A stretch of 64,000 bases of DNA from a candidate division FCPU426 bacterium (GTDB lineage: Bacteria > Oederibacteriota > JAAXVQ01 > JAUVAV01). The DNA lies in contig JAUVAV010000013.1 in assembly GCA_030591525.1 (NCBI GenBank), positions 1 to 64,000 on the forward strand. Reading direction: 5' to 3'. Of this stretch, positions 61,342-64,000 are shown piece by piece (the stretch's first letter is position 1; each line of letters starts with the position of its first letter). Under the pieces are notes generated by a model that did not search any database, was not told where the DNA came from, and saw only the letters and a list, made by a program, of their open reading frames with translations. Position numbers and translations under genes: made by a program.

Positions 61342-61480
61342 CCTAGGAGCCTGAGCAATTAGTTGCTCAGGCTCCAGAGCATTTGAGATTCGATAGTAGA
61401 AATTAGATAAAATATCGCAAATGCGGTCTACTTTCTACTATCCACTCTCAAAAAACCGACTAATTGCTCAAACTCCTAGG
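61342..61480. mobile_element. MITE-like element (c) with GAGCAATTAGT inverted ends
   Basis: The left end CCTAGGAGCCTGAGCAATTA and the reverse complement of the right end CCTAGGAGTTTGAGCAATTA match at 20 of 22 outer positions. The left end is part of a perfect 13-bp hairpin (GGAGCCTGAGCAA-TTAG-TTGCTCAGGCTCC, 61346-61375). The interior has GCATTTGA...CAAATGCGGTC, as at 34970-35010. It begins directly at the stop codon of the Crp gene. Confidence 0.68.
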
Positions 61481-62128: not shown

Positions 62129-63343
62129 GTGAATCCTAAGGGTCACCGGGATCGGGAAGTTTATTCGGTCTCCGAAGTAGTCGCGCGGGCCCGGGATTTA
62201 TTGGAAGGCGCGTTTTCGCGCGTTTGGGTTGAAGGCGAGATATCCAATTTCAAAGGGCATTTCTCCGGACATTTCTATTTTACCCTGAAAGACTCCGAGA
62301 GTCAGCTTCGTGCGGCCATGTTCCGCGGAGCCAACCGCGGGTTGAAGTTTCAAGTGGAAAACGGGCTCAAGGTAATTGCCGGGGGACGGCTTTCAATTTA
62401 TTCGGCGCGCGGTGATTTCCAGATGGTCGTGGAGAACCTGGAGCCCGCCGGGCTCGGCGCGCTCCAACTCGCCTTTGAACAGCTCAAACAAAAGCTGGCA
62501 CAAGCCGGACTCTTTGATCCGGGAAGAAAAAAAAACCTGCCGGAGTTCCCCCGCCGCATTGCAGTGGTAACCTCGCCTACCGGGGCCGCGATCCGCGATA
62601 TTTTAAATGTCACCGGCCGGCGCTCGATGTTGGCGGATATATCCATATATCCGGTCCGGGTCCAGGGGGAAAGCGCGGCCCGGGAAATCGCGCAGGCCTT
62701 GCGCCGGTTAAACGAGGAAAACGGATGGGATGTTATTATTTGCGCCCGGGGCGGAGGATCGCTCGAGGATTTATGGGCGTTTAACGAAGAGATCGTGGCC
62801 CAGGCTATAGCGGATTCCCGGATTCCGGTAATTTCAGCCGTGGGACATGAAATTGACTATACGATTTCTGATTTTGTGGCCGATGTCCGGGCGGAAACCC
62901 CGACCGCAGCGGCGGAGATGGTTCTGCGGGACCGCCGGGAACTGCTGGAACAAATTAAATCATTTTCCCGCATCATGTCCAACAAACTAACCGGCCGGTT
63001 GCGCGAGTCACGCCGGAGATTGGACCGGGTTCTGGATTCACGCATCCTGCAGCAGCCGCGAAGAGTTTTTGAGCCTTTGGCGCAGCGCCTGGATGATCTT
63101 TTCAACCACCTGCGGCAGAGGATGGGTAACCAGGTCCGGCTGGGTAGGGAGCGGCTGCAAGGCCGGGCGGCCCAGTTGGAAGCGCTATCGCCGCTTAAGG
63201 TCATGGGCCGGGGTTATTCTCTCGTATATCGTCTGCCCGGGCGGGATCTGCTTAGCAAGTCTGCAGGTTTGAAGCCGGGAGATGAATTGGAGATTGTTTT
63301 TCATAAAGGCGGGGCGGAGTGTGAAGTGAAGAAGATTAGTTGA
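62129..63343 (+). CDS. xseA: Exodeoxyribonuclease VII large subunit
   Basis: 404 residues from GTG 62129. N-terminal OB fold (VYSVSEVVARARDLLEGAFSRVWVEGEISNFK), catalytic core with RIAVVTSPTGAAIRDI, ARGGGSLEDLWAFNEE and AVGHEIDYTISDFVADVRAETPTAAAE, then a long coiled-coil region. Degrades single-stranded DNA with XseB. Length is close to normal (E. coli 456). Confidence 0.95.
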   Translation: MNPKGHRDREVYSVSEVVARARDLLEGAFSRVWVEGEISNFKGHFSGHFYFTLKDSESQLRAAMFRGANRGLKFQVENGLKVIAGGRLSIYSARGDFQMVVENLEPAGLGALQLAFEQLKQKLAQAGLFDPGRKKNLPEFPRRIAVVTSPTGAAIRDILNVTGRRSMLADISIYPVRVQGESAAREIAQALRRLNEENGWDVIICARGGGSLEDLWAFNEEIVAQAIADSRIPVISAVGHEIDYTISDFVADVRAETPTAAAEMVLRDRRELLEQIKSFSRIMSNKLTGRLRESRRRLDRVLDSRILQQPRRVFEPLAQRLDDLFNHLRQRMGNQVRLGRERLQGRAAQLEALSPLKVMGRGYSLVYRLPGRDLLSKSAGLKPGDELEIVFHKGGAECEVKKIS

Positions 63344-63358
63344 TATTCCAAACATCGT

Positions 63359-63384
63359 GTAGGGGCAAGGCATGCCTTGCCCTT
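63359..63384. repeat. GTAGGGGC-family palindrome
   Basis: GTAGGGGCAAGGCATGCCTTGCCC lies between xseA and xseB; the centre GGCATGCC is a perfect palindrome. Confidence 0.6.
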
Positions 63385-63414
63385 AATGCGAAGAGGAGCC
63401 AAGGAGCATCACCC

Positions 63415-63834
63415 ATGCCTAAGAAAAATAAAACCATGAATTTCGAAGAAGCCTTGCATCGTCTGGAAGAGCTGGTTTCACAGCTGGAACGCGCCGAGGC
63501 GCCGCTGGAAACCGCTCTGGCGCTGTATGAAGAGGGCGTAGGCCTGGCGCGTTTTTGCTCTCAGCAGTTGAAAACAGCGGAGCGGCGGGTTGAAATACTT
63601 GAAGATAAGAACGGGCGAATAGAGAGCCGGCCATTTTTATCCTCTGACCCGGAAAGGCCCGGGCTAGGGGAGGGAAGAGAGATGGACTTAGAAAATAATG
63701 AAGCGGAAAATATTGAACATGCCGAAGAAACCCCAGAGAGCGGTGAGGAAGAAGACGACGAGGAAAACGACGACGAGGAAAACGAAGAAGACTCTGAGTC
63801 GGGTCTCGGTCGCAACCAAAAGAGCTTCTTCTAA
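63415..63834 (+). CDS. xseB: Exodeoxyribonuclease VII small subunit with acidic tail
   Basis: 139 residues from ATG 63415, set by AAGGAG 10-11 nt upstream. Residues 1-65 are a normal XseB (NFEEALHRLEELVSQLERAEAPLETALALYEEGVGLARFC). The usual length is near 80; here about 60 further residues follow, very rich in Glu/Asp (EEDDEENDDEENEED). That tail overlaps the beginning of the polyprenyl synthetase frame by 116 bp. Confidence 0.92.
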   Translation: MPKKNKTMNFEEALHRLEELVSQLERAEAPLETALALYEEGVGLARFCSQQLKTAERRVEILEDKNGRIESRPFLSSDPERPGLGEGREMDLENNEAENIEHAEETPESGEEEDDEENDDEENEEDSESGLGRNQKSFF

Positions 63835-64000
63835 AACCCGGCCGGATTTTGATTTAAAAATATACCTGGAGCAGCGCCGGAAAGCCGTAGATACTGCGCT
63901 GGACTACTGGCTGCCGCCCTCGGACCGTTTTCCGGTTCGGCTCCACTCGGCTATGCGGCACAGCATTTTTTCAGGCGGCAAGCGTCTGCGTTCCATTCTG
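63719..64000 (+). CDS. ispA: Polyprenyl synthetase (IspA/GGPP synthase type), 3' partial
   Basis: The frame is absent from the ORF track because it runs off the window. From ATG 63719 it reads a very basic head (MPKKPQRAVRKKTTRKTTTR...) of about 42 residues, and then the usual start of a polyprenyl synthetase (FDLKIYLEQRRKAVDTAL) to RHSIFSGGKRLRSIL, the IPP-binding GGKR motif. The only in-frame starts before the conserved part are ATG 63719 and GTG 63743, so an overlap with xseB of at least about 90 bp is required. xseB-ispA order is common in bacteria. Confidence 0.82.
   Translation, partial: MPKKPQRAVRKKTTRKTTTRKTKKTLSRVSVATKRASSKTRPDFDLKIYLEQRRKAVDTALDYWLPPSDRFPVRLHSAMRHSIFSGGKRLRSIL

Follow-up and report, generated by a model that had tools for sequence, protein, structure and literature searches.

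Near the end of this stretch of DNA, the gene for the small subunit of exonuclease VII (xseB) appears to overlap the gene for a polyprenyl diphosphate synthase (ispA) on the same strand. The shared letters encode an acidic protein end in one frame and a basic protein start in the other. The question is whether both frames are really used, or whether ispA in fact starts later. In what follows, the window is the whole stretch that was analysed, at its full length of 64,000 nucleotides.

Overlaps of this kind have been looked at before. Palleja et al. surveyed 715 co-directional overlaps of more than 60 bp and judged all of them to be annotation errors (PMC2478687). Later work accepts long overlaps in diverse bacteria (PMC8665328). 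As in those long overlaps, the downstream gene here extends into its upstream neighbour in another frame of the same strand. No paper on an xseB/ispA overlap was found. The features involved are these:

62129 to 63343, forward strand: xseA, exonuclease VII large subunit, with a GTG start in the list of open reading frames (PF02601 1.1e-94, PF13742 1.7e-29)
63415 to 63834, forward strand: xseB, exonuclease VII small subunit with a C-terminal extension, 139 amino acids (PF02609 9.8e-20)
63442 to 63597, forward strand: conserved XseB domain (PF02609, residues 10-61; a search of the genome set gave the same place; helices with high pLDDT)
63652 to 63819, forward strand: acidic, predicted disordered XseB tail, residues 80-135 (AF2 pLDDT <50)
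63698 to 64000, forward strand: ispA, farnesyl/geranylgeranyl diphosphate synthase; its reading frame leaves the window and ends at contig position 64741
63719 to 63834, forward strand: overlap of xseB and ispA, 116 bp from ATG 63719, 137 bp from ATG 63698, 92 bp from GTG 63743
63719 to 63844, forward strand: basic, predicted disordered IspA head in the +1 frame, MPKKPQRAVRKKTTRKTTTRKTKKTLSRVSVATKRASSKTRP (from translation; pLDDT <50 for residues 1-41)
63814 to 63831, forward strand: conserved, clamp-binding-like XseB C-terminal peptide NQKSFF (from alignments and stop-anchored ends)

XseB scores 70.1 bits against TIGR01280 (cutoff 35), and its nearest solved structure is 8txr, an exodeoxyribonuclease 7 small subunit. 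An XseB domain adjoining xseA identifies it as the small subunit of exonuclease VII. IspA scores 349 bits against NF045485 (cutoff 275) and has the full catalytic domain of that family. It also matches PDB 7my1 at 1.4e-89, from residue 37 on. The match to the FPP synthase model covers residues 51-339, and the basic head falls outside it. An apparent dxs and other genes follow downstream of ispA.

The reading frame of xseB runs from ATG 63415 to the TAA stop at 63832-63834. The frame of ispA is shifted by +1 from that of xseB and opens at 63692. Its standard starts are ATG 63698, TTG 63713, ATG 63719 and GTG 63743. The initial annotation held that no start comes after 63743, and this is borne out for ATG, GTG and TTG up to the enzyme core at about 63848. 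Within the overlap, the sole near-cognate codon of the ispA frame after GTG 63743 is CTG 63794. Since all standard ispA starts lie inside xseB, with none later before the core, the overlap is 92 to 137 bp long. The earlier figure of about 116 bp is right for ATG 63719, but it overlooked ATG 63698. The purine-rich run that had been singled out, GAAGACGACGAGGAAAACGA, is indeed present in the overlap.

Counted from 63719, the net charge of the XseB tail is -16 and that of the +1 head about +15/+16. The description of one frame as acidic and the other as basic is therefore correct, but the surprise that the initial annotation implied in it is not. When GAN-GAN is read in the +1 frame, it becomes ANG, which encodes K, R, T or M and cannot be a stop. 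When the XseB tail of the source genome is recoded with random synonymous codons, the +1 charge is +13.7 +/- 1.5, against +15 observed, and the +1 frame stays open in about 85% of such recodings. The charge inversion is thus an automatic property of GAN-rich sequence and no more than chance provides. Opposite charges as proof of dual coding were rejected for this reason. The same effect is known from human disease, where the acidic tail of HMGB1 turns basic on frameshift (PMC9931588), and frameshifted tandem repeats in general show a change from acidic to basic (PMC12871928). There too an E/D-rich tract becomes K/R-rich in another frame. The difference is that those cases involve a mutation or an in-silico shift, whereas here both frames are apparently used in a normal genome.

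Two things do go beyond chance: the recurrence of the overlap across the order, and a depletion of hydrophobic residues in the +1 frame. The order sample consists of eight genomes from six genera, whose records are named candidate division FCPU426, Firestonebacteria or Goldiibacteriota. These are independently named MAG assemblies from different projects. A comparison of xseB-ispA junctions in relatives had been proposed as a check, and it finds the xseB tail overlapped in the +1 frame in every one of the eight. Each time XseB has an acidic tail, and the open +1 frame of the same DNA encodes a basic head. In seven of them ispA itself overlaps the tail; in the eighth (G004) the overlap is by way of an intervening basic reading frame. 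All direct junctions are in phase +1, and the distance to the IspA core is nearly constant, with GGKR at +139 or +142 in six of seven. From the xseB stop to the IspA core, six of the seven direct junctions are without ATG, GTG or TTG. The exception is G002, with possible later starts at TTG +55 and GTG +58.

A frameshift from sequencing or assembly at the xseB end of the source MAG could have created the overlap artificially. The source assembly (2.7 Mb) is fragmented, in 91 contigs, and the region is repetitive, as such an error would have it. Against this, the same arrangement occurs in eight genomes from different projects, with matching ends. Sequencing error was rejected on these grounds, and there is next to no chance that it is the explanation.

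The pair shows several features expected of a true overlapping pair: conserved families, conservation among orthologues, no alternative start (in six of seven), and selection in the upstream frame. The xseB-ispA overlap looks real and conserved, which is rare for same-direction bacterial genes. The surveyed overlaps of more than 60 bp were mostly start-calling errors, while this one is mostly without a later standard start and is common to six genera. It is a well-supported counter-example to the verdict of the survey (PMC2478687).

The junction of G004 has features of its own. Between xseB and ispA it has an extra reading frame of 172 amino acids (L166 2451-2969, and in the same place in L031 and L037), for which no Pfam match was found. 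Its product is Lys/Ala-rich, with a KAKK-rich basic head and an acidic tail that ends in EEKDQPF. It starts inside xseB, behind a perfect Shine-Dalgarno sequence (AAGGAGGTAATGGAGATG), and ispA in turn starts inside it, in the +1 frame over its acidic end. From the end of the extra frame to the IspA core (GGKR at about +139) the distance is the one usually seen from the end of xseB, which gives the impression of a duplicated junction. In this genome the xseB tail is a 21/63-bp tandem repeat.

It is helpful to look at relatives outside the order to see which partner came first. XseB is present in 41 of the phylum's 45 genomes. Outside the order, fifteen members from eight families have an XseB that ends in Phe (-LF, -LPF, -PF, -FKF), mostly preceded by an acidic linker. 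A +1 overlap is missing from twelve of them, and ispA, where in reach, begins no earlier than the stop. In the remaining three (families f10 and f14) the +1 overlap is short, at about 17-23 bp. In families f3, f4, f6, f8, f11 and f12, XseB does not have the Phe end. Because related families carry the tail without the overlap, the tail is independent of it. Most simply, the XseB tail would be the older partner and the ispA head the later addition.

The initial annotation described the overlap, but went without mention of this tail in relatives that have no overlap, and of a conserved C-terminal motif of XseB within the overlap. The tail is acidic in all eight order genomes, and its residues are not conserved in the alignment. 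Across the order XseB ends in QKSFF, QKNLF, QKSLF, QKTLF, QESLF, QERLF, QDTLF or RDTLF. The motif for binding the sliding clamp is QL[S/D]LF, since revised to Q-aliphatic-x-[L/M]-[F/L] (PMC13254535). The XseB ends share with it the Q at position 1 (in 7/8), the hydrophobic final pair [LF]F (in 8/8) and a place at an accessible, disordered end. At position 2, where the revised consensus has an aliphatic residue, they carry K, E or D instead. The presumed clamp-type motifs of DnaE in the same genomes (QMSIF, QVNMF, QMPMF, QLAMF, QGSLF, QVSLF) resemble the XseB end, apart from its charged position 2.

Through its C-terminal peptide, XseB probably attaches exonuclease VII to a partner, for which the DnaN sliding clamp is the foremost candidate, and we hypothesize that the clamp would be bound through the Q-x-x-L/F-F end. 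As a genome-wide DNA pattern, QxxLF-stop is not enriched (48 matches, against 53 in the reversed control). The literature search yielded no paper that connects XseB with the sliding clamp. A different candidate was mimicry of the C-terminal tip of SSB. The SSB tip is an acidic run followed by PF, and XseB likewise has an acidic linker with a terminal Phe. However, SSB in the sampled genomes ends in -PF (27/28), whereas the XseB of the order ends in -LF or -FF, usually has Q as its fifth-last residue, and does not fit [I/V/L/A]PF. This candidate was rejected since the tips are unlike those of SSBs.

XseB ends similar to those of the order also occur further away. Records L072, L084, L088, L092 and L099, from the PVC group and others, have SDNLF, QNNLF, GESLF, GDTLF and QPGLF after extensions that look disordered, and similar -LF ends are seen in records of Lentisphaerae, Kiritimatiellae and Planctomycetes. 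This suggests that exonuclease VII may carry a docking peptide at its C-terminus more widely. The comparison thereby exposes a likely docking peptide of which no description was found in the literature searched, and this clamp-like tail may be a more useful lead than the overlap itself.

Codon constraint in both frames had been named as a check, and the outcome differs between the two. Between the source genome and its near relative G001, 12 substitutions in the overlap are synonymous for XseB and change IspA, and 3 are the reverse, where the neutral expectation is 26% versus 28%. From this split the XseB frame is real and dominant. For the +1 frame, a recoding model was built from codon usage and next-base context, using 34-144 genes per genome, and applied to seven tails; G001 was omitted because it is so close to the source genome. 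In the +1 frame, hydrophobic residues fall below the recoding expectation, with a combined z of -5.9, or -4.2 without Met. As controls, 189 acidic windows elsewhere have a mean z of 0.11, and the xseB core has 0.45. The unread +2 frame deviates as well (hydrophobic z -3.4, charge z +6.8), so part of this hydrophobicity-lowering codon bias may act at the nucleotide level. Between the two species of the genus, no conservation of IspA-frame amino acids was seen in the overlap. For IspA, the composition hints at a constraint, next to a deviating +2 frame, and changes within the genus do not spare its residues.

Simpler tests are available. A GAC/GAT test with next-base context gives a modest z of 3.0, and a GAA test is dominated by the tandem repeat of G004; the recoding test was therefore relied on. 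The last six xseB codons share synonymous codons above expectation (P=5.5e-4). The final Phe codon is TTC in 8/8 order genomes, versus 2/15 for Phe-ended XseB elsewhere in the phylum (Fisher 9e-5, with GC content unmatched). Since the tails had been inspected before the recoding and codon tests were designed, the P values are guides. With this in mind, the IspA head is probably translated, under weak constraint on its composition, and overprinted on an older XseB tail.

A genuine, order-wide co-directional overlap, in which an upstream move of the start overprinted the basic IspA head on the XseB linker, is the likely explanation. Overprinting is favoured by the overlap in 8/8 genomes, the missing later start in 6/7, Shine-Dalgarno-like sites in several genomes and the codon signal in the +1 frame. 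Of the two options in the initial annotation, expression of both tails is thus the better supported one, with the expression of the head being what we infer.

The course of events might be as follows. XseB would have had an old, acidic and disordered C-terminal linker with a short hydrophobic end peptide (Q-x-x-L/F-F). In this order, the ispA start would have shifted upstream into the linker-coding part of xseB. Acidic C-terminal tails are natural sites for such start capture, and the linker a ready-made start region, because GAN-GAN in the +1 frame is free of stops, yields frequent ATG where GAT precedes G, and has purine-rich, Shine-Dalgarno-like runs. By this move IspA would gain a basic, disordered head of roughly 25-60 residues. 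The opposite charges would be a by-product of the code, and the head mainly tolerated, with weak selection for hydrophilicity.

The most likely route to translation would be ribosomes starting internally within the purine-rich xseB tail. Shine-Dalgarno-like sites do stand at in-frame starts: ATG -62 in G006 (dG -8.9), TTG -101 in G003 (-9.3), ATG -203 in G004 (-12.6) and ATG -98 in G007 (-7.5). The ispA starts of the source genome have weak matches, with dG from -3.3 to -5, and purine-rich tails yield Shine-Dalgarno-like runs by chance.

In the stretch 63667-63684, a strong Shine-Dalgarno-like run (GGGGAGGGAAGAGAG) stands before ATG 63682, which is in frame inside the xseB tail. This start could yield an acidic peptide of about 50 residues. 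G001 does not have the run.

Other ways of producing IspA have to be weighed. Its start might be a non-standard codon close to the xseB stop or beyond it, such as CTG 63794 or an ATA/ATC-type codon, so that the +1 overlap is untranslated and there is no long head. This was the other option of the initial annotation, and it is improbable. Phylum orthologues do begin right at the core (MDFKKYL, MSFSLKSYL), and there is a GAGGA run upstream of CTG 63794, though at 14 nt. But no near-cognate start with a well-spaced Shine-Dalgarno is common to the genomes, and standard in-frame starts lie inside every overlap. Such a start also does not predict that codon choice depletes hydrophobics in the +1 frame, and nothing points to one. 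An XseB-IspA fusion, made by programmed +1 frameshifting close to the conserved CTC TTC TAR, is very unlikely, even if it would suit the conserved synonymous codons (CTCTTCTAR) with which xseB ends, the constant +1 phase and the near-constant core distance. Slipping from UUC to UCU should re-pair poorly with the Phe tRNA, and to our knowledge the CTC TTC TAR end fits no known +1 signal, be it of the prfB (CUU UGA) or antizyme type. RNA folding at this site is not in excess in the 4 genomes examined (z -1.1 to +1.2), the stop varies between TAA and TAG, and the codon bias spans the whole overlap, which a fusion does not need.

It is also conceivable, though rather doubtful, that selection maintains the basic head for a separate role, for instance to tether IspA to acidic membrane lipid or to bind the acidic tail of XseB. 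All members have a basic head, most of them somewhat above the recoding expectation (combined z 3.3-3.6), and 6-7 of 8 keep S-S-K/R/N at its end in the IspA frame. Even the ispA of G004, which lies over the extra reading frame and not over xseB, has one. On the other hand, the charge is mostly automatic, the head sequence is not conserved within the genus, and no ordered structure is predicted for it. Most far-reaching would be a de novo basic IspA extension overprinted on a clamp-tethering tail and selected in both frames across the order, with products that perhaps bind each other through their charges. This we consider unlikely.

The window holds two other elements of note. Between xseA and xseB, at 63359-63385, lies a near-perfect palindrome, TAGGGGCAAGGCATGCCTTGCCCTTA, the only copy within the window. 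Further upstream, the intergenic region at 61342-61480 has nested inverted repeats, with outer arms of 22 nt, inner arms of 26 nt and a 13-nt hairpin, and could be a small mobile or REP-like element.
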